From Anaerolineaceae bacterium (lineage in GTDB: Bacteria > Chloroflexota > Anaerolineae > Anaerolineales > Anaerolineaceae), in the NCBI GenBank assembly GCA_002702705.1, contig PABH01000056.1, positions 1 to 64,000 on the forward strand: 64,000 nt of DNA. Direction: 5' to 3'. The position numbers were made by a program, and so were the translations under genes. Position 1 is the stretch's first letter; every line of letters begins with the position of its first letter. Positions 35,743 through 53,152 of the stretch are shown here, piece after piece. The notes beneath the pieces are model-generated. The model was not told where the DNA came from. It did not search any database and saw nothing but the letters and a program-made list of their open reading frames with translations.

Positions 35743-36732
35743 TTAATTTACGACGTGGCAAGCCACAAAGTGATCAGGTTTTACCTCTCGAAATTCCGGT
35801 TTTTCAACCGAACAAATATCAATGGCCAGGGGACAGCGTGTGCGGAATCGGCAGCCTGAAGGTGGGTTCACTGGTGAAGGAACATCACCTTCCAGAACAA
35901 TCCGTTGCCGTTTTTCTTCTACAACGGGGTCCGGAATCGGAACAGCAGACAACAATGCCTGAGTATATGGATGTAAAGGATTTTCATATAATTCATCACG
36001 TGTTGTTAATTCAACAATGATGCCCAGATACATCACAGCAATACGGTCACTGATGTGACGAACCATAGAAAGATCATGGGCGATGAAAAGATACGTTAAT
36101 CCAAATTCTTTTTGTAAATCTTCCAAGAGATTAACAACTTGGGCTTGAATGGATACATCCAAAGCGGAGATTGGTTCATCACAAACGATTAATTCCGGTT
36201 GTAAGGCCAAAGCACGGGCTACGCCAATCCTTTGTCGCTGTCCACCGGAAAATTCATGCGGGAAACGGTTTGCAAATCTTGAATTTAATCCAACGAGATC
36301 TAATAAGTGCTCTACCCGTTCCTGTGTTTGTTTTTTATCGGCTAATTTGTGGATCACCAAAGGCTCTCCAATAATTTCGCCCACCGTCATTCTTGGGTTC
36401 AAACTGGCGTAGGGATCCTGGAAGATCATCTGCATCTGGCGCCGCATGGCACGTAATTCTTCGCTTTTTAACTTTGCCAGGTCTTTGCCCTGATACCAAA
36501 CGCTGCCAGCAGTAGGACGGTAGAGTTGTAAAATGGTACGTCCGGTTGTTGATTTTCCACAACCCGACTCACCCACCAAGCCTAAGGTCTCACCACGATG
36601 AATATCGAAGGAAACGCCATCTACTGCGTGAACAGCACCGATTGTTTTTGAAATAATGATCCCTTGGGTAATGGGGAAATGTTTTTTTAAGTCCCTTACA
36701 CTCAGGAGAATTTCTCTGTTGTCCGTTTTCAT
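35743..36732 (-). CDS. oligopeptide/dipeptide ABC transporter ATPase (OppF/DppF type)
   Basis: A 329-residue ATPase. Walker A is [12 protein letters not shown], signature [15 protein letters not shown], Walker [13 protein letters not shown]. The C-terminal OppF extension carries [19 protein letters not shown]. The ATG at 36732 overlaps the stop of the OppD-type gene in an ATGA arrangement and has GGGAGAG upstream; a frame from 36765 is not needed. A long plus-strand frame antisense to its 3' end and the next gene (35202-36020) is not a gene. Confidence 0.93.
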
Positions 36733-37718
36733 GCGCGTTCTCTCCCGGTTTTGGTATCTACCCAACAGGCAGCGTAATGATCAGGCCCTGTTTCCAATAA
36801 GGGCGGATTTTCCTGAAGGCAGTGTTCTCTGACAAAGGTACAGCGAGGTGCAAAGGGGCAAGAGGTTGGTTTGTCCATGAGAATAGGGGGCAAACCATCA
36901 ATTGATTCAAGTCTGCGATACTGATCCGTATCCAGACGAGGTAAACTGTTTAATAAACCTAACGTATAGGGGTGGGTAGGATTAGCATATAAACTCTTAA
37001 CTGGCGCTGTTTCGATAATATAACCGCCATACATAACGGCCATTCGATCCGCCAAACCGGCGATTACACCAAGGTCATGGGTAATCCAAATAATCGCCAT
37101 ACCCAATTTATCACGCAGTTCTTTCACCAGTTCCACAATTTGAGCCTGAATGGTTACATCCAAAGCAGTTGTCGGTTCATCCGCGATTAAGACGGAAGGA
37201 TTACAAACCAGTGACATTGCGATCATAACGCGTTGGCGCATTCCACCGGAAAATTGGTGCGGGTAATCATTTAAGCGTGCTTTGGCTTTGGGAATCCCCA
37301 CTAACTCCAACATATCAGCCACGCGCTCATATGCCTGTTTTCGTGACATACCCTGGTGAATTTCCAGTGGTTCCGCCACTTGACGACCAATCGTCAAAAC
37401 AGGATTAAATGATGTCATTGGATCTTGGAATACCATGCTGATTTGGGAACCTCGAACATGGCGGATTTCCTCATCCGACATCTTTAACAAATCTTTACCT
37501 TGATAAAAGGCTTGACCTGCGACTACTTTTCCGGGTGGTGATGGAATTAAACGTAACATAGACATTACTGTCACGCTTTTACCACAGCCACTTTCTCCAA
37601 CAATACCTAGGGTTTCGCCTTCTTTTAAGCTGAAGGATACCCCGTTTACTGCGTGTACAATGCCCTCACGCACACGAAACTGCGTCTCGAGGTCCTGCAC
37701 TTTCAATAATTCGGCCAT
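36729..37718 (-). CDS. oligopeptide/dipeptide ABC transporter ATPase (OppD/DppD type)
   Basis: A 329-residue ATPase and first gene of the second peptide-type transporter operon. Walker A is [13 protein letters not shown], signature [15 protein letters not shown], Walker [13 protein letters not shown]. The C-terminal motif reads [20 protein letters not shown]. It is translationally coupled to the OppF-type gene by a 4-bp overlap. A near-consensus promoter lies 86 bp upstream of the ATG. Confidence 0.94.
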
Positions 37719-42026: not shown

Positions 42027-43076
42027 TTACCGAATGGGTTCATAAAATTCAGGAAAGGCTACAAATCCAAACAATGTTTCGGGAAATTCATCGGTAACGA
42101 TTAAAAAGCCAAGATCGTCCAGGGTGACCAAACCCTCCCAATTTCGTGCTTCATCATCCGGTAGGAGTTCCAATTGGATCGGTGCTTTTTGGACAGGAAC
42201 AATGCCATCTTCTGTAAATTGCAATGGGATTAACCGTTCAACCGTCGTATTTTGATTGTGGGTATATCCTTTTCCATATGTTTGGCTGAAAAAATCTTCG
42301 GCTGGTTTTAGTTTTTTATCACCCGGATAAAAATAGTTAATCACCCAAAAAAGTCCATTCGTATCAACATTACTGGCATCGGTGACCCGGTATTCAATGG
42401 TAGGAAAGGATAACCGGTCCATCGGATGAAGATCAAGGTCAAGAGAATAAGCGCTGGGGTCGGCATTTACATTGAATCCATTGGCTTCATAAAAAGTGAT
42501 GACCCGCCGCCCAAACACCACAATACTTTCATCACTCATATTATCAAGTTTAGCCTGTGGTTCCAATTCAGTTAAGGAATCCGCATCTAAGGCAATTTGG
42601 TCCATGGTTTCATTAAGGATTCCGGACACAATATAACCCATCATCTCACCCTGTTTGGCTTCAATCGTTAAATAAACGGTGTTATTTTCTACGGCAATCG
42701 CCTCAAACCCTTCAAAACCAGGGATCGATTTTTCAAGCCCGGCTGAATCCAGCGTGATTGGCAGCATGGGCAAGGGTTCCGAACTGTTGGTTTGGATGGC
42801 TTGAAGCAGGGTATCTTTTGAGATGCGGAATAACTGGTTGTTAAAACGGCCGGGATATTGGGGCAGGAAAATCAACCAGTCACCAGCCCAGCTCAGCCCG
42901 CTGATTTCAGCTTTGGGGGTGTTGAGGGGAGCAGCCAGGGTTAATAATGTGACTGGCATTTCGTAAGCGGTAGGTTCCGGTGCTTCAACACGGGCTGGCA
43001 GATTCGGCTGGCATGCGCTGAAGACAATCAGCAGACTTAATAGGACAAAAAAAAGGTTTAGATAGGTTTTTCTCAT
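42027..43076 (-). CDS. lipoprotein, possibly beta-propeller (phytase-like/SdiA-regulated type)
   Basis: A 349-residue protein with a lipoprotein signal (LIVFSAC, Cys near 21) and no motif I can name with certainty. Phrases such as ISGLSWAGDWLIFLPQ, IPGFEGFEAIAVENNTVYLTIE and WEGLVTLDDLGFLIVTDEFPETLFGF recall the repeating blades of 'esterase-like activity of phytase' or SdiA-regulated propellers. This assignment is tentative. It is transcribed away from the permease-peptidase fusion, sharing a 262-bp intergenic region, and ends 67 bp before maf. Confidence 0.7.
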   Translation of the reverse strand: MRKTYLNLFFVLLSLLIVFSACQPNLPARVEAPEPTAYEMPVTLLTLAAPLNTPKAEISGLSWAGDWLIFLPQYPGRFNNQLFRISKDTLLQAIQTNSSEPLPMLPITLDSAGLEKSIPGFEGFEAIAVENNTVYLTIEAKQGEMMGYIVSGILNETMDQIALDADSLTELEPQAKLDNMSDESIVVFGRRVITFYEANGFNVNADPSAYSLDLDLHPMDRLSFPTIEYRVTDASNVDTNGLFWVINYFYPGDKKLKPAEDFFSQTYGKGYTHNQNTTVERLIPLQFTEDGIVPVQKAPIQLELLPDDEARNWEGLVTLDDLGFLIVTDEFPETLFGFVAFPEFYEPIR

Positions 43077-43231: not shown

Positions 43232-43338
43232 CAGCCCTGTAGGTATGATTGTTTTAGCTTGTCCATTTAATTAGGCCAATGTACAATAAATCAAATCAAA
43301 TAAGCATCATCGTGTTTAACCATTTCCAAGAGCATTTC

Positions 43339-46300
43339 ATGTCATTAAAAACGAATACTAAAAATAACAAAACAATCGCTTCCTATGGGAAAATAATTTT
43401 TCAACGTATCCTCAGTACGATCACTACCCTGGTCGTGATTGCCTATTTGACGATTTTTGTATTGATCCTGGCTGAAAGAGGTCGAGATCATTTACCTGCC
43501 CAACCATTACAATCTGCCGGAAATGCAATTTCCCGTCTTATTACCTATTTTTTTGATCATCCTCTAACCTATTTATGGCACCGGCAGGATATTGGTGCAT
43601 TTCAATTTGTTCTAGATACTTTTCTGAATAGTGCCGGATTATTACTCGTTTCGATTATTTTTGCAGCTGTGATAGGTGTGTTATTAGGTTTGGCAGCTGC
43701 CCTTTCAAAAGGACGGGTAGGTTCGTCACTTGTGTTGATTTTTTCAGTGTTTGGCATGTCCACGCCAAGTTTTTTATTTGCGATGTTATTGTGGATTTTT
43801 AATGTTCAGATCATCCAATACAAATTGGGTTTAAAAGCATTACCTCCTACCGGAATTGGTTGGGATTTACATTTAATTATGCCCGCCTTGGTTTTGGCTG
43901 CTCGCCCGCTGGCGCAAATAGCCCAGGTGACCTATATTTCATTACGTGATGTTTTGGGGGAAGATTATATTCGAACCGCACGATCCAAAGGACTTTCTAA
44001 TCGTCTGATATATTTTCGGCACGCTTTTCGTAATATTCAAATCCCGGTATTAACCACGATCGGGACTTCCATTCGATATGCCATCGCCAGTTTGCCTGTC
44101 GTTGAGTTCTTTTTTCTCTGGCCAGGCATCGGCTTAACTTTACTTCAGGCAATCGAACTGGGTTATACCAATCTTGTGATGGATTTAATCCTGGCACTTG
44201 GTTTGTTTTTTATTGTGTTTAACCTGATTCTGGATTTTATTTATCCCCTGCTGGATGCCCGCTTAAGGAAAGACGGTACATCAAGCGAGATCAGTGATGC
44301 AGTGCGTTTAAGGGATCTATGGAATGGGTTGTGGGAAACCGTAACGGGTTTTGTTACGGATATTTTGGTGTTTTTAAAAATAACAAAACGGAAGAAAAAT
44401 CATTTACCCCCGCTGAGCAGTCACTTCTCGCAAAAGGAAGGGGAAGCCCCTGCGATTGGCTCGGTGAAATGGAAACAATGGTTCAGTTGGATCATCAATA
44501 ATCCGGCCTTAATAATTAGTTTTGTGTTGGTGCTTGGTTTAGCCGGCGTGATGCTGTTTGGCCAGCAATTAACTTCTGCTAATCCGTATGAAATGAATGG
44601 TGTTATGAAAGTTGATGGTGTAATCGGTGCACCACCGTTCGCGCCATCAAACACATTTCCCTGGGGTACGGATCACTTAGGGCGCGATATGATGGCATTG
44701 GTTTTAACAGGCGGTCAGCGTACCTTAACCCTGGCATTGTTGGTAATGGCAGCTCGAATGGTTGTAGGTACCTTTTTGGGTGTCATTGCTGGGTGGTGGC
44801 AGGGTGGATTGTTTGATCGTCTGATTACCCGATTGTTAAATATTTGGGCTGCATTTCCCATTACCATCTTTGCCATGTTATTGATCCAGGCGATCGGTAT
44901 TCAACAAGGCACATGGGTGTTTGTTGTGGCCTTATGTATTGTGGGGTGGGGAGAAGTAACTCAATTTGTACGTTCACAAACACTTCGAATCAAACCGCAG
45001 TTATTTGTAGAAGCTTCCCGTTCACTGGGTGCTTCTGCTGGTGGAATTTTGATCCGGCAGGTGTTTCCTAATTTGGTAGCCTCATTAATTGTCATCGCTT
45101 CATTAGAAATGGGCGGCATTCTCATGCTGCTGGCTGAATTAGGATTTCTGAATGTCTTTTTGGGCGGTGGTTTTCAGGTGGAATTTGCTGTTGGGCAGTG
45201 GGTCATGTTCTCCGATATTCCGGAATGGGGCTCCTTATTAGCAAACATCCGTGATTGGTGGCGCAGTTATCCCTGGATGGCCTGGTACCCTGGATTAGCC
45301 TTTTTCATCGCAATCATGACATTTAATCTGTTTGCGGAAGGCCTGCGTCGTTTTCTGGAAGACAGCCGGGTAAATCTGAGCCGTTTATTTAACCGCTATA
45401 CGTTCTTAAGTCTGGTTGTTATTGGTTTAGCCATTCTGTGGGTAACACAAAGTCAATCTCCATTGGGACGGTATCGCTCTGTTGCCCGTCAATTTGACTC
45501 GGAACGGGTTTTTGAAGATATCGAAGGCATCCTCAACCCCGTTTTTAATGGCCGAGAATCCGGTACACCGGATGATTTAGCGATTGCAACCTATCTTGGA
45601 CAACAAATGGAAAAAATTGGTTTGTTTCCAGCCGCATCCGATGGAAATTATGTTCATGCGGTTCGTACTTCACGACTGCATTTATTACAAACCCCTGCAT
45701 TGGTTATCGAGACGCAAGATTCTGGATTTGAAAAAGAGCTGGTTTATCGAGAAGATTTTGTGGATTTTGGGGGACCAGGCGAAACCTATGGAGAAGCATT
45801 TGGTAGTGTGATCGGATTGGCCTATGGACCAGGAGATGAAAAAGCAATTTTGCAAAATTTATCAGGGTTAACGCTGTTGGACAAAGCACTCATCATTCGG
45901 GCTGAAGATTATGGGAAAGCTGGACTAAATAATGCCTCTCTGATTTTGGTAATATCCTCGGATGAAAAGATATTTACACAAAAAAAACTGTATTTCACCC
46001 CATTTTACCGGGGAAATCCAACACCAACATTTTGGATATCTGAAACCACCGCTAATGAGTTATTAAGTAGTTGTGGTTCCAGCTTAAACCAATTTAAACA
46101 AGAAGCAAACAACCTTGAGGCTGGCCAAATATATATTACTGAGCCCGGAGTAACAGTGTCTGGATCCATTATCTTGGAAGAACGGCTGGATGATGAATAC
46201 CATGTAGTGGTGGGTGTTTTACCGGGTGAAGGGGCTGCTGTGATGCAAAATGGTCATGCCTTGGATAATGAGGTGACCGTAGTCAGCGCTTATTATGATG

Positions 46301-46863
46301 GACTTGGCAGCCAACCGGATGGGATCATTTACCCTGGCGCGAATGACAATGCCAGCGGTGTGGCTGTTTTGTTCGAAACAGCCCGCCAATTATTAGATAG
46401 CCCCTACGCTCCCTCCCGCACCGTGGTGTTCATTCTGTGGTCTGGCGCAGAGCGAGGTGAACCCTTTGCAGTGAATGACACAATGGGATCCATCAATGGG
46501 TTAAGTGATTTCATCCTAAACGAAATTGTTGAAATTAGCGGCGTAGGTGCAGGCTCCGGTAAAGGCATCTCCTTGGGTGGGGATTCAAGTTATCGTCTTG
46601 TAAAACTGGCTCAACAAGCGGCAGATCGGTTAAATATTTCAACCACCACCCGGGGTCGAGGGCCGCATTACGGTATTGTTCCGGAAGCGCCTGTCCGTCT
46701 GTCTCGCAATGTACCAAGTTTGTACTTTAGTTGGGATGGTGCTGATGAAACCGCCCACACCTTGGAAGATAATCTCTTAAGTTTAGATCCTGAAAAATTG
46801 ACCAAAAGCGGCCAGTTGATTACATTGATCCTGTTGGTACTTTCCAGGGAATTAAATTATTAA
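43339..46863 (+). CDS. OppB-OppC permease fusion with C-terminal M28 peptidase-like domain
   Basis: A 1174-residue protein. Residues about 25-315 are an OppB-type permease (EAA loop EDYIRTARSKGLSNRLIYFR near 203). A cytoplasmic linker of ~80 residues follows, then an OppC-type permease to about 680 (WGTDHLGRDMMALVL; EAA loop VEASRSLGASAGGILIRQ near 555). An added helix (YTFLSLVVIGLAILWV, near 690-705) should put the rest outside the cytoplasm. Residues about 720-1174 resemble family M28 aminopeptidases: ANDNASGVAVLFETA near 1000, a WSGAER segment and AHTLEDNL near 1145. The usual H-x-D reads Y-Y-D and the usual E-E reads E-R, so two metal ligands look lost. No ATPase or binding protein adjoins it. 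The start is uncertain; an ATG at 43279 is also in frame. Confidence 0.85.
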   Translation: MSLKTNTKNNKTIASYGKIIFQRILSTITTLVVIAYLTIFVLILAERGRDHLPAQPLQSAGNAISRLITYFFDHPLTYLWHRQDIGAFQFVLDTFLNSAGLLLVSIIFAAVIGVLLGLAAALSKGRVGSSLVLIFSVFGMSTPSFLFAMLLWIFNVQIIQYKLGLKALPPTGIGWDLHLIMPALVLAARPLAQIAQVTYISLRDVLGEDYIRTARSKGLSNRLIYFRHAFRNIQIPVLTTIGTSIRYAIASLPVVEFFFLWPGIGLTLLQAIELGYTNLVMDLILALGLFFIVFNLILDFIYPLLDARLRKDGTSSEISDAVRLRDLWNGLWETVTGFVTDILVFLKITKRKKNHLPPLSSHFSQKEGEAPAIGSVKWKQWFSWIINNPALIISFVLVLGLAGVMLFGQQLTSANPYEMNGVMKVDGVIGAPPFAPSNTFPWGTDHLGRDMMALVLTGGQRTLTLALLVMAARMVVGTFLGVIAGWWQGGLFDRLITRLLNIWAAFPITIFAMLLIQAIGIQQGTWVFVVALCIVGWGEVTQFVRSQTLRIKPQLFVEASRSLGASAGGILIRQVFPNLVASLIVIASLEMGGILMLLAELGFLNVFLGGGFQVEFAVGQWVMFSDIPEWGSLLANIRDWWRSYPWMAWYPGLAFFIAIMTFNLFAEGLRRFLEDSRVNLSRLFNRYTFLSLVVIGLAILWVTQSQSPLGRYRSVARQFDSERVFEDIEGILNPVFNGRESGTPDDLAIATYLGQQMEKIGLFPAASDGNYVHAVRTSRLHLLQTPALVIETQDSGFEKELVYREDFVDFGGPGETYGEAFGSVIGLAYGPGDEKAILQNLSGLTLLDKALIIRAEDYGKAGLNNASLILVISSDEKIFTQKKLYFTPFYRGNPTPTFWISETTANELLSSCGSSLNQFKQEANNLEAGQIYITEPGVTVSGSIILEERLDDEYHVVVGVLPGEGAAVMQNGHALDNEVTVVSAYYDGLGSQPDGIIYPGANDNASGVAVLFETARQLLDSPYAPSRTVVFILWSGAERGEPFAVNDTMGSINGLSDFILNEIVEISGVGAGSGKGISLGGDSSYRLVKLAQQAADRLNISTTTRGRGPHYGIVPEAPVRLSRNVPSLYFSWDGADETAHTLEDNLLSLDPEKLTKSGQLITLILLVLSRELNY

Positions 46864-48701: not shown

Positions 48702-49481
48702 ATGTCTGAAAACGAATTTGATTACCTTGAGGAAGAAAAACCAAAAAAATTACAGTTTGGCTGGGTGTTCCCAATCCTGTTTAAACCACGCCAAACCCTA
48801 AAAGAGATTGCAGAAAAAAATCACAGTGTTTGGTTGGCACCACTGCTGTTGTTGATGGTTTCCGCGTTAGTGGTAGTGCTGGTCAGTGTGCCGGTTTTAA
48901 ACCAGAGTGCCGGACCTGTGGAAATGCCCCCTGATTTTGAGTATTTTTCACCGCAGCAGCAAGAGCAGTTCCAACAGGCCGTGAATATGGGAAGCAGTCC
49001 GGTTAATACAATTGTCTTCCCCTTGTTATTGCGCTACGCTGGCATCTGGATCAGTTGGTTTTTATTGGGCAGTATTTTACATCTTTCTTTAACGTTAAAT
49101 GGCAGCCGTTCCAGTAACCGTTCGGCCTTAAACCTGGTGGCTTGGGCCTCTATTCCCTTTGTCATTCGGGATATTGTACAGGCGGTGGCGATCTTAACCA
49201 CCAAACAATTAATTTTAAAACCTGGTCTGTCCGGTTTTGTTACGGATGGAGCCACAGGTTTGATGATTTTTGTGGGGGCGTTATTGGGATTTGTTGACCT
49301 CTATTTAATCTGGCAGATTATTTTATTAGCGGTAGGTGCCAAACAAATTTCCGGCTTAAAAAGTGGAAAAGCCTGGCTGGCAGTTTTGATTGCTGTAGTT
49401 GTATTTTTATCCTTAAAAGCCTTGCCTGTCTTTTTAGGTGCCCAACTCTCCTCGCTATCCAGCGGTGGAATGATGTTTTAG
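48702..49481 (+). CDS. YIP1-family membrane protein
   Basis: A 259-residue protein with a cytoplasmic N-terminal ~40 residues (LFKPRQTLKEIAEKN, a typical lead-in of bacterial Yip1-domain proteins) and five to six membrane helices spread over about 45-255. The ~35-residue loop near 75-110 is probably extracytoplasmic. An AAAAGGAGAG ribosome binding site precedes the ATG. The stop is 3 bp before an ABC ATPase, so it is first in the operon at 48.7-53.2 kb. The molecular role of bacterial YIP1 proteins is not established; here the position suggests a part or modulator of the exporter. Confidence 0.85.
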   Translation: MSENEFDYLEEEKPKKLQFGWVFPILFKPRQTLKEIAEKNHSVWLAPLLLLMVSALVVVLVSVPVLNQSAGPVEMPPDFEYFSPQQQEQFQQAVNMGSSPVNTIVFPLLLRYAGIWISWFLLGSILHLSLTLNGSRSSNRSALNLVAWASIPFVIRDIVQAVAILTTKQLILKPGLSGFVTDGATGLMIFVGALLGFVDLYLIWQIILLAVGAKQISGLKSGKAWLAVLIAVVVFLSLKALPVFLGAQLSSLSSGGMMF

Positions 49482-49484
49482 GTT

Positions 49485-50219
49485 ATGACCGACAAGCCAT
49501 ATATTCAATTTTTAGATTTACGGAAGACCTTCGTGATGGGGCGCCAGAAAGTGCATGCCCTGGATGGGGTTAATTTGGATATTGCCCCTGGTTCTTTTAC
49601 AGTCATTATGGGACCTTCCGGTTCCGGTAAAAGCACCCTGCTTTATTTGTTAGGCGGATTGGACCGGGCCACATCGGGGCAGATTTGGGTTAACGGAAAA
49701 GAGTTGGAAGGCCTGGATGAAAACGATCTGGGTATTTACCGCCGCAAAAGTGTGGGGTTCATCTTCCAGTCATTCAATCTAATTGCCAGCATGAGTGCAC
49801 TGCAAAACGTGATTTTTCCGATGCGCTTTGCCGGCATTCCCCGCGGGGAACGCCATAAGCGAGCGGTGCGTTTATTAAACCAGGTTGGCCTGGGAAAACG
49901 TGCCTTGCACAAACCAACCGAACTTTCCGGTGGTCAGCAGCAGCGCGTGGCAGTTGCCAGAGCATTGGTAAATAACCCCGCCCTGATTTTGGCCGATGAG
50001 CCGACTGGTAATTTGGATACAACCAGCAGTTTTGCGATTATGAAGATTTTAAAAGAACTTAACGAAGATGGTCGAACCATCGTGGTGGTCTCACATGATG
50101 CCCGCATGCGCCAGTTTGCATCCCACATGGTGTACATTTTAGATGGAAAAATTGTATCAGAAGCAGAATATGAAGAAGCTTCCAGTTTTGAAATTCCTGA
50201 AGATGATACGGAGGAATAA
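49485..50219 (+). CDS. ABC transporter ATPase of the LolD/MacB type
   Basis: A 244-residue ATPase. Walker A is GPSGSGKSTLLYLLGG (near 40-55), Q loop FIFQSFNL, signature LSGGQQQRVAVARAL, Walker B LILADEPTGNLD, and the switch His in VVVSHDARM. The GNLD and short length are typical of LolD/MacB/FtsE ATPases that pair with FtsX-like permeases and drive mechanotransmission, not classical import. The permease is encoded two genes downstream (51833-53152). The last ~20 residues are acidic. Confidence 0.93.
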   Translation: MTDKPYIQFLDLRKTFVMGRQKVHALDGVNLDIAPGSFTVIMGPSGSGKSTLLYLLGGLDRATSGQIWVNGKELEGLDENDLGIYRRKSVGFIFQSFNLIASMSALQNVIFPMRFAGIPRGERHKRAVRLLNQVGLGKRALHKPTELSGGQQQRVAVARALVNNPALILADEPTGNLDTTSSFAIMKILKELNEDGRTIVVVSHDARMRQFASHMVYILDGKIVSEAEYEEASSFEIPEDDTEE

Positions 50220-50225
50220 TAATTA

Positions 50226-51827
50226 ATGAAAAAAACAATTCACTTATTACTTGGGTTGATCTTAATGACAGCGATCATTCTAACCGCCATTGGTTCCCAA
50301 CCCGTTAAGGCGCAAACTGAAACACCGGTTACGCCAACCGAGTCGGCAACAGCAACACCAACACAGCCCGTTGAGACAGCAACACCAACCCAACCCGCAG
50401 AGACTCCAACACCAACTACGCAACCTACAGAAACGACCGCTCCAACTACCGCACCTTTTGCACGGCCGCTGGTCGTGATTGATTCCTACAATACGGGTGA
50501 TGATTCCATTTCCATGGGTGATGGATTCAACTTAAATGTACGCCTGAAAAACACAGGGCGCGGCGCAGCTTACAATGTAGTGGCAAACTTCCAAAGTACC
50601 GAATTTTCCCCATTGGAAACCGGCGGCGTGAAAGCGGTAGCCACCATTGATGCCAGTGGTGCAGTGGATATACGTCAGCCAATGAAAGCACACACGGATC
50701 TCTGGGGGGTTACCTCTGGTACGGTCACTGTGGCTTTGAGTTACACCGATTCAGCCGGCACAGCATATACTGAAAACTTCAGTATCACGATTGCGATAAA
50801 ACAGCCCGATTATTCCAGCTGGGCCGCTACCGCCACACCGACGCCGAAACCAAGAGCTCAATTGGTTGTAGCCGGTTATACAGTAGATGCCGATCCATTA
50901 CAACCCGGAACCATTTTTAACCTTGATATCGAGGTACGCAATTTGGGCAGCACGACAGCCAAAAATGTAACCATGGTGTTAGGCGGCGGCGTTGTGCAAA
51001 CCTCCAACGGAGATGGAAATGATGGTACCCCGAGCGGGGGCGTATCCGGCGGTGGGGCAGAATTGACCAATTTTGCACCGCTCGGCAGCTCAAATCTCAT
51101 TTTTATCCCGGAAGTACCGGTTGGTGAAAATGTAAAAAGCAGTGCCCAGTTAATTGTAAACGTCTCTTCGAACCCGGGTGCATATCCTTTTAAACTTTCT
51201 TTTGTATATAACGACGAGAATGGCAACCGCGTGGTTGATGACCAGGTTATCACCCTGTTGGTATACTCGCTGCCACGGGTTGAAGTTGGTTTTTACCGCG
51301 ACCCCGGCATCCTAATGACCGGTCAGCCCGGCCCACTGCCATTACAAATTACCAATCTCGGTAAAACCACGGCGGTATTGGGAAACATGAAAGTCACCGC
51401 AGACGGTGTTGAGATTATGGAAAATGTTTCCTTAGTCGGCGCATTAGAACCGGGTGGTTATTTTACAATGGATGCCATGGTGATCCCATTCCAGGCTGGA
51501 CCGCTGGAACTGAATGTCCAGGTTGGTTATACCGATGATTTTAATCAACCACGGATGATCGAACAAAAAGTGGTCGTGCAGGTAGAAGAAATGCCGGTTT
51601 TTGAACCACCACCGGAAGGTGAAATGGATCCGGGAATGGAAGGCCCTGGATACCCGATGCCGGGACAACCTGAAACTTTTGGGCAAAAATTACTACGGGC
51701 TATTAAAGGCCTGTTAGGTCTCGGCAGTGCGCAGCCACAGCCTGTGATGGAACCGATGCCAATGCCGGATGAGATGTACAATGAATCACCCCCTCAGAAA
51801 CCGGTGATCGTTGGACCAAAAGGATAA
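50226..51827 (+). CDS. exported CARDB-like adhesive/adaptor protein
   Basis: A 533-residue protein with a Sec signal (MKKTIHLLLGLILMTAIILT, cleavage likely after VKAQ near 30) and a Thr/Pro/Gln-rich linker to about 80. Three Ig-like CARDB/COG1361-type domains follow, near 80-190, 215-340 and 345-445 (ISMGDGFNLNVRLKNTGRGAAYNVVANF; LQPGTIFNLDIEVRNLGSTTAKNVTM). The C-terminus is Pro/Met/Glu-rich. It sits between the ATPase and permease genes, so it probably works extracytoplasmically with the MacB-like permease, in the place where MacA would be. That role is inferred from position. Confidence 0.85.
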   Translation: MKKTIHLLLGLILMTAIILTAIGSQPVKAQTETPVTPTESATATPTQPVETATPTQPAETPTPTTQPTETTAPTTAPFARPLVVIDSYNTGDDSISMGDGFNLNVRLKNTGRGAAYNVVANFQSTEFSPLETGGVKAVATIDASGAVDIRQPMKAHTDLWGVTSGTVTVALSYTDSAGTAYTENFSITIAIKQPDYSSWAATATPTPKPRAQLVVAGYTVDADPLQPGTIFNLDIEVRNLGSTTAKNVTMVLGGGVVQTSNGDGNDGTPSGGVSGGGAELTNFAPLGSSNLIFIPEVPVGENVKSSAQLIVNVSSNPGAYPFKLSFVYNDENGNRVVDDQVITLLVYSLPRVEVGFYRDPGILMTGQPGPLPLQITNLGKTTAVLGNMKVTADGVEIMENVSLVGALEPGGYFTMDAMVIPFQAGPLELNVQVGYTDDFNQPRMIEQKVVVQVEEMPVFEPPPEGEMDPGMEGPGYPMPGQPETFGQKLLRAIKGLLGLGSAQPQPVMEPMPMPDEMYNESPPQKPVIVGPKG

Positions 51828-51832
51828 ACCTG

Positions 51833-53152
51833 ATGCGTTTTTGGGATTTAGTCAGCCTGATTTTTGAAAACCTCAGCCGCCGTAAAGGCCGGGTGGTTTT
51901 AACCGCGGTCGGTGTGGTAATTGGTACTGCAGCCGTTGTGCTGTTGGTTTCTTTGGCCAGCGGGCTGCAAAAAAGTGCTACCAGCAATCTGTATGGGATT
52001 GATGATCTGACCAAAATTGAAGTTTATCCCAATTATGGCGGCGGCATGTATATCGAAGGACCAGGTGGTGGCTCAACGGATACGATGAAACAGCTAACCA
52101 CCTCTGCCCTCCAGGAAATTGCCGCGATTGATGGTGTGAAAGAAGTTATTCCCAAAGAATACCTGATGGGTGGGGCAGCCATTCGTTATGGCCGATTAGA
52201 GAACTACTCTAGTTTGATGGCTGTAGACACGGACGATCTGGCAAATATGGGTTACAAAATTGATCAAGGATCGACTGAACTCCGTAAAGGAACAGCTGTC
52301 GTGGGAAGCTGGGTCGTACAGAATTTTTACGATCCCAGTGTGCGACCGGGACAGGAACAGCCCACGCCGCCCACAGCCGAAGATCTATTAAACCAAAAAC
52401 TTCGAGTGGTGTTAACCAAATGGAGTTCGGATGGAGAAGAGATTCAAAAAACCATCAATTTGCAGGTCATCGGAATTTTACAAGAAGGCCGGAATGATGG
52501 TGACGGCAGTATTTTTATTGACTTTGGTGAATTGACCACATTAAACGAATGGTTTAATAATGGCAAACGGATCAATCGAAACAAAGATGGATATAACAAC
52601 GTTGTTGTTAAAGCGGAAGATGTAGATCAGGTGGTCGCCATCACCGAACGAATTAATGAATTGGGTTTTATGGCTTATTCTCCTCAGAGCATGGTTGAGG
52701 GAATCAACAGTTACTTTATTATATTGCAGCTCGTTTTTGGCGGAATTGGTGCCATAGCCCTGTTGGTGGCAGCAATTGGGATTGCCAATACCATGACCAT
52801 GGCTATTCTGGAGCGAACGAAAGAAATTGGGCTGATGAAAGCCATTGGTGCCACCAACCGTGATGTTCTGAGCATTTTTTTGGGAGAAGCAGCTGGAATT
52901 GGCTTCTTAGGAGGCTTGGGCGGCGCCCTATTGGGCTGGCTCGGTTCCAAAGTGATCAATGTGGTTGCAATGTCCTTTTTAGCCAGTCAGGCTCAGAGTG
53001 GCGGCATTCCCTCTGGATTAAACGCCGTCACACCGGCCTGGTTATTGATCTTTTCAATTATTTTTGCCACACTGGTGGGGTTGCTTTCAGGTTTATACCC
53101 AGCCCTACGGGCAGCCACCCTGGCGCCTATGATGGCATTAAAATACGAATAA
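51833..53152 (+). CDS. MacB/FtsX-type ABC permease
   Basis: A 439-residue permease with the MacB layout: helix 1 (VVLTAVGVVIGTAAVVLLVSLASGL, about 20-45), a ~250-residue extracytoplasmic MacB_PCD domain, then three C-terminal helices in an FtsX domain (IGAIALLVAAIGIANTMTMAILERTKEIGLMKAIGAT near 303-340). It forms the membrane part of the exporter with the ATPase at 49485-50219. The start is 5 bp after the CARDB-like gene. The substrate is unknown: MacB relatives export peptides, lipoproteins or drugs. Confidence 0.92.
   Translation: MRFWDLVSLIFENLSRRKGRVVLTAVGVVIGTAAVVLLVSLASGLQKSATSNLYGIDDLTKIEVYPNYGGGMYIEGPGGGSTDTMKQLTTSALQEIAAIDGVKEVIPKEYLMGGAAIRYGRLENYSSLMAVDTDDLANMGYKIDQGSTELRKGTAVVGSWVVQNFYDPSVRPGQEQPTPPTAEDLLNQKLRVVLTKWSSDGEEIQKTINLQVIGILQEGRNDGDGSIFIDFGELTTLNEWFNNGKRINRNKDGYNNVVVKAEDVDQVVAITERINELGFMAYSPQSMVEGINSYFIILQLVFGGIGAIALLVAAIGIANTMTMAILERTKEIGLMKAIGATNRDVLSIFLGEAAGIGFLGGLGGALLGWLGSKVINVVAMSFLASQAQSGGIPSGLNAVTPAWLLIFSIIFATLVGLLSGLYPALRAATLAPMMALKYE

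Follow-up and report, generated by a model that had tools for sequence, protein, structure and literature searches.

The DNA stretch analysed here, hereafter the window, comprises 64,000 nucleotides of an Anaerolineaceae bacterium (assembly GCA_002702705.1, contig PABH01000056.1, positions 1-64,000 of the forward strand) and encodes, in one unbroken reading frame, two permease halves of the Opp/Dpp type followed by an outer domain resembling M28 zinc peptidases. The architecture is spread over many families of Chloroflexota, catalytic residues of the outer domain are lost, both parts of the chain are under purifying selection, the loops on which ATPases dock are conserved, and most copies examined have no Opp ATPase beside them. 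The best explanation, to which we give about an even chance, is that the protein is an import channel of an Opp/Dpp-type ATP-binding cassette (ABC) transporter in one chain with a disarmed, M28-derived peptide receptor, powered by shared OppD and OppF.

In the mechanism that we propose, the fusion would supply the whole transmembrane portion of an importer of the Opp/Dpp type and its tethered outer domain would derive from an M28 zinc aminopeptidase that has been disarmed. The former active-site cleft would hold one end of a peptide, perhaps with one remaining zinc in the clade of the window protein and with Gln and Arg replacing the ligands in another clade; where a cation replaces zinc, the cleft could hold on to a carboxylate or carbonyl and leave the peptide uncut. 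From there the peptide would pass into the underlying channel, the outer domain standing in for a binding protein or helping one, and ATP would be hydrolysed by OppD and OppF encoded elsewhere. The peptide substrate, the direction of import, the receptor role, the sharing of ATPases and the surviving zinc site are what we infer from sequence comparison.

Architecture and recurrence of the fusion

The initial annotation had read the gene as OppB permease, OppC permease and an M28-like domain in one polypeptide, with two complete permease halves, each carrying its own EAA loop, and then an extra helix; Pfam, hydropathy and the unbroken frame bear this out. The open reading frame has 1,194 codons, and the ATG at 43339, taken as the start in the initial annotation, would give 1,174 residues; either may be the start used. 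The parts of the gene are:

43279..46863 (+), entire gene, coding for an OppB-like half, an OppC-like half, a 13th helix and an M28-like outer domain (open reading frame, Pfam)
43675..44271 (+), first permease half, BPD_transp_1, residues 133-331, with an EAA loop from 43948
44644..45354 (+), second permease half, residues 456-692, matching NCBIfam Opp2C, with an EAA loop from 45004
45397..45453 (+), 13th membrane segment, residues 707-725, which by hydropathy puts the C-terminal part outside
45466..46860 (+), outer domain, PA and M28-like, with Pfam Peptidase_M28 at 46252-46821 and the PA part taken from a low-confidence model

BPD_transp_1 was matched in two stretches (7.4e-45) and Peptidase_M28 at 9e-14, with 52.1 bits against a gathering cut-off of 21.3. 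Hydropathy gave 13 membrane segments arranged as 6+6+1 with the M28 part C-terminal to the last, and the EAA loop was found in both permease halves. In NCBIfam the first half matched Opp2B best and the second Opp2C, Opp4C and NikC, with scores far below the equivalog cut-offs (Opp2C 163.9 against 300), which leaves the protein outside these equivalogs. AlphaFold models were poor, with a predicted local distance difference test score (pLDDT) of 58.6 and 47.2 (two runs, six sequences). The outer-domain model (pLDDT 58.6), the only one searched with Foldseek, retrieved M28 aminopeptidases, glutamate carboxypeptidase II and transferrin receptor with template modelling scores of about 0.4; it was used as support for the fold and not for the metal site. 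By its sequence (Pfam) the outer domain is predicted to have the M28 fold and not that of a binding protein.

The genome of the window (5.9 Mb, 96.8% complete) encodes a second full-length copy, 45% identical, likewise with two permease halves and M28 in one chain. A pattern-limited scan of contigs, the one search with a bearing on distribution outside the phylum, gave six loci, including one in Thermanaerothrix daxensis; five were complete and the sixth was truncated by the end of its contig. In a class-level search that included the genome of the window, 75 of 396 genomes had an M28 match at 1e-12, and by hand count the match lay, in 47 of the 396, within a fusion-sized open frame (1,107-1,501 residues); this count leaves out G440, whose 1,410-residue frame has two M28 matches and resembles the secreted kind. 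As frame length alone is no proof of permease halves, the fetched loci were checked by phmmer. The permease-permease-M28 order, whose spread the initial annotation had wished to see checked, was found in many families of the phylum. An assembly join of three genes, also raised there, is ruled out by the second full-length copy and by orthologues with the same order in independent assemblies, including that of Thermanaerothrix daxensis, whose homologue L010 is 49% identical, and the one-contig genome G617; nothing was found in favour of an artefact of assembly or annotation, which we regard as practically negligible.

Three forms were distinguished. Form A has OppB, OppC and M28 in one chain, some members with a TPR-like N-terminus. 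Form B carries a LolD/MacB-like nucleotide-binding domain (NBD) ahead of OppB-OppC-M28 (L079, L083, L086, L088, L135, L136). Form C has a separate OppB gene, then OppC-M28 (about 820 residues), in several loci followed by a beta-propeller gene, and next a protein of about 1,600-2,070 residues carrying two M28 domains; among three of these proteins scanned, two matched Peptidase_MA and one (L099) had DUF418 in front. Large, secreted-looking proteins of the two-M28 kind were located at L095:5843-10732, L099:7455-13628 and L101:6883-11865, some with Peptidase_MA between the domains. Genome G011 has three consecutive OppC-M28 genes after one OppB-like gene (L140:1835-10109, +), and G690 a tandem pair of complete fusions (L087:688-8262, +).

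Form B bears on the direction of transport, as the chain might instead be an exporter or one-way valve whose outgoing peptide or small molecule is received by the outer domain. Chains of about 1,440 residues with the LolD/MacB-like NBD adjoin MacB/FtsX and HlyD genes in four loci (L079, L083, L086, L088), and Sap-type permeases, which NCBIfam names putrescine exporters, are among the weaker matches of the window protein. The top family matches, though, are Opp/Nik importers, and Walker A is intact in just one of the four form B NBDs read (L083), so that we consider export improbable.

Active-site residues of the outer domain

Positions are given in the numbering of the 1amp-type aminopeptidase (H97 to H256), and the register was taken from the match to those enzymes and from alignments with secreted relatives.

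46291..46293 (+), Y1005, which takes the place of zinc ligand H97 (alignment)
46345..46347 (+), D1023, corresponding to bridging zinc ligand D117, kept (alignment)
46447..46452 (+), A1057-E1058, aligned with Glu151-Glu152; Ala replaces the catalytic base and the Glu that binds metal is retained (alignment)
46537..46539 (+), S1087, which takes the place of zinc ligand D179 (alignment with secreted relatives)
46666..46668 (+), H1130, probably equivalent to zinc ligand H256, with a two-residue uncertainty in the alignment register

The tyrosine that the initial annotation had noted in the first zinc motif indeed stands at H97, and a third changed ligand, S1087 for D179, had escaped it. Its statement that E-R replaces E-E was off by one residue: R1059 aligns directly after Glu152, and E-R as the Glu pair is ruled out by alignment with 1amp-type enzymes and secreted relatives. 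The possibility raised there, that the natural ligands lie intact at other positions, holds for E152 alone; H97, D179 and the base are not found intact. For the last zinc His, the MAFFT and hhalign placements differ by two residues and the match of H1130 requires a seven-residue insertion in the window protein; H1130 is favoured as H256 because in L095 and other split forms the His and the following strand are spaced as in intact relatives. R1059, R1125 and R1127 are invariant across six sequences of the clade of the window protein.

Both ligands specific to Zn2 (H97, D179) are thus replaced in the window domain and Ala occupies the position of the base, while D1023 and E1058 are kept at Zn1. 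In human glutaminyl cyclase, Zn1 is described as bound by Asp159, Glu202 and His330, and Zn2 by His140, Asp159 and Asp248 (PMC11312887). By analogy, the window domain may keep Zn1 (Asp, Glu and probably His) and have lost Zn2 together with the base.

To follow these positions across the family, we scored 70 permease-linked domains (at least 300 residues, near copies removed; 51 with both halves in the chain and 19 others), a set that leaves out loci L135-L144 and five domains of f43, a group from another class. Three of the 70 are without the region of the last His and were scored as without the Zn1 trio. The base E151 and the Zn1 trio proved mutually exclusive: 27 domains have only the trio, 30 only the base and 13 neither, and none has both. 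Asp99 is present in all 70, whereas E151 and E152 are both Glu in a single domain (L079), which is without D117 and D179. Five split-type forms keep all metal ligands and have lost the base alone, and Arg stands at the D179 position in 25 of the 51 two-permease chains. Substituted active-site residues are conserved inside clades.

Domains that are not joined to permeases served as controls. In secreted partners, the first M28 domain keeps E151 and E152 in 14 of 14 cases and the five scored positions in 13 (the remaining one is cut short), and the second keeps the five in 1 of 14; other non-permease M28 domains keep all five in 6 of 6. The OppC-M28 frames of five f43 genomes likewise have the complete H-D-E-E-D set (5/5), so that 5 of 75 permease-linked domains look active, all of them from f43. 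The SDH motif is also present in f43 copy L113. These f43 genes, an OppB and an OppC-M28 with an intact-looking site, lie at L113:9740-12106 (-), where a second M28 gene adjoins, and at L145-L149.

The catalytic Glu serves as the base in aminopeptidases and cyclases, and all 27 trio-keeping domains are without it, while 43 of the 70 are without the trio. This speaks against a one-zinc hydrolase or transferase that would use D1023, E1058 and H1130 on peptides before import. That the outer domain is still such an enzyme would agree with the trio in 27 domains, five of them with every metal ligand, with the intact look of the f43 members, and with human glutaminyl cyclase, an M28 relative described as working with Zn1 only (PMC11312887); we hold it to be unlikely, if marginally less so than export.

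ATPase docking, selection and the proposed receptor role

As a channel of this type would need an ATPase, we examined the docking loops and the supply of NBDs. In the EAA loops, Ala and Gly are invariant in 62 first halves and Gly in 70 second-half rows (the window protein counted twice), and their retention across the family argues that an ATPase still docks on the chain. The initial annotation had found no ATPase or binding protein adjacent to the gene and had suggested borrowing from the two operons on its left. None is adjacent in fact: the nearest family 5 binding protein is 7.5 kb away on the opposite strand, and the nearest Opp ATPases belong to another operon:

35743..37718 (-), nearest OppF and OppD, possible shared ATPases, outside the gene and 5.6 kb away

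Within the genome of the window, 12 OppD/OppF-like NBDs at E<=1e-55 form six pairs, and every one of these shares its contig with canonical permeases, likewise a pair; 17 NBDs match at 1e-25, the five beyond the 12 scoring near 100 bits. Among these listed matches no spare Opp ATPase pair was found. An OppD-like NBD at 1e-55 occurs in 54 of 55 carrier genomes, seven of which have just two, the miss being G721 (76% complete). Borrowed ATPases are plausible because of the 12 paired NBDs and of the OppD-like NBD in nearly all carriers, and MsmK is described as an ATPase shared among sugar importers (PMC4519317). A seventh canonical OppB/OppC pair of the same genome, on a contig with no OppD/OppF-like ATPase among the listed matches (L003:480-2295, G000 contig 6), may be another sharer.

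The neighbourhood survey covered 61 loci representing 60 places (L082 and L117 are the same), many on short contigs. An Opp NBD was seen within the available DNA in four of the 60, namely the window, L115, L116 and L117; the last three were fetched for a known OppD on the same contig, which makes the sample non-random, and L115 and L116 come from one genus. The window aside, a canonical Opp gene or family 5 binding protein lies on the same strand within 10 kb in six places (L077, L082/L117, L115, L116, L127 and, by a weak match, L120). In L077 and L127 the fusion has a family 5 binding protein beside it, and in L127 it sits between OppB-OppC and that protein on one strand.

Selection was estimated in four pairs with synonymous divergence (dS) of 0.8-1.2. 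The ratio of nonsynonymous to synonymous divergence (dN/dS) was 0.087, 0.182, 0.106 and 0.095 for the M28 part and 0.062, 0.085, 0.081 and 0.121 for the permease part, and purifying selection thus acts on both. This constraint and the invariant Ala and Gly of the EAA loops count against permease halves that serve as a non-transporting scaffold or sensor, with an outer domain whose task is to sense or stabilise some other target, for example cell-wall peptides. We judge such a role unlikely, though a serious candidate, as most copies have no dedicated ATPase alongside, Walker A is lost in three of the four form B NBDs read, and several members have TPR-like N-termini.

The tethered receptor with lost catalysis, suggested in the initial annotation, is partly supported and would fit better than the rivals considered, because base and trio never occur together in the 70 domains, both parts are under purifying selection and the ATPase-docking loops are kept. 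Several points weigh against it. The five f43 domains look fully active, and tethering accordingly needs no receptor role. The EAA loops are overall no better conserved than the remainder of the chain, and the neighbourhood is not conserved, with no canonical Opp gene in the DNA examined at 53 of the 60 places. The poor structure models leave the cleft and zinc site unseen, the register of H1130 is uncertain, and binding and transport are predictions.

Descent of the outer domain, known parallels and neighbouring genes

In the OppC tree, 32 M28-linked rows were split from nine canonical rows by one branch (100/100); f43 branched apart from the split and fused forms, and two canonical rows were long branches. 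An M28 tree without the f43 OppC-M28 sequences placed 49 permease-linked domains on one side of a branch (Shimodaira-Hasegawa-like approximate likelihood ratio test 96, quick method), and once f43 was added its tethered domains grouped with f43 soluble M28 proteins. A single old tethering with later catalytic loss would fit the permease tree, and a separate tethering in f43, or an exchange of M28 domains there, would fit the M28 tree. As the five f43 domains look intact, tethering may have come first, with an enzyme still active, and disarming only afterwards. Slightly short of an even chance, in our estimate, is the wider proposal that, class-wide, the zinc aminopeptidase on an Opp-type permease became a dedicated substrate receptor that replaces or assists the binding protein, with base and trio lost alternatively in different clades and the active form kept by a group in another class. 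If true, the change from cut-and-import to catch-and-import could be read in living sequences, and as intact, half-disarmed and fully disarmed forms occur in one family, both the sequence of the losses and what the domain now does are testable.

The fusion resembles Opp/Dpp/Nik-type permeases (OppB and OppC, BPD_transp_1) in its two EAA-loop halves of six helices, with Opp2B and Opp2C as best matches. It differs from them in being one chain and not two, in the extra helix and M28 domain, in the absence of its own adjacent ATPase or binding protein, and in its branch separate from canonical OppC. With PA-domain M28 aminopeptidases (2ek8 and 1amp type) it shares fold and motif order, but the window domain is permease-tethered and has lost the base and the Zn2 ligands.

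Importers of this ABC type are expected to take their substrate from a binding protein, to which a built-in receptor derived from a peptidase would be a different solution. The outer domains of GlnPQ have the binding-protein fold, unlike the M28 fold predicted for the fusion. The covalent joining of outer domain and membrane part is shared with GlnPQ-type importers, GlnPQ being described as having permease-linked binding domains (PMC8025302). The closest precedent in principle is nicastrin, a membrane protein with an M28-like outer domain, for which a receptor or gate role and a substrate-binding site of peptidase ancestry have been described (PMC2647162); an M28-like domain without a working catalytic site is what the fusion has in common with receptors of this type. 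Database matches add nicalin and transferrin receptor as further M28-like membrane proteins; all three are eukaryotic and, unlike the fusion, not joined to an ABC permease. A built-in receptor would be a parallel to the nicastrin of gamma-secretase, and in Chloroflexota it would connect the trimming of peptides with their uptake. Among the titles listed from the open-access literature none concerned a permease-M28 fusion, which is weak evidence of absence, and an Opp-type ABC importer with an outer domain of a kind lacking a report there is a plausible interpretation.

No constant neighbour gene was found; six neighbours of about 600 residues were scanned, of which three fell in unrelated families and three had no match. 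MacB-type genes occur near some fusion copies. Downstream in the window, positions 48702-53152 (+) encode Yip1, a LolD-like ATPase, a 533-residue protein and a MacB-like permease, and the same order lies beside the fusion in L009 and L012. A lipoprotein-like gene of 349 residues without Pfam match (42027-43076, -) is divergent from the fusion and is kept there in the same two loci.

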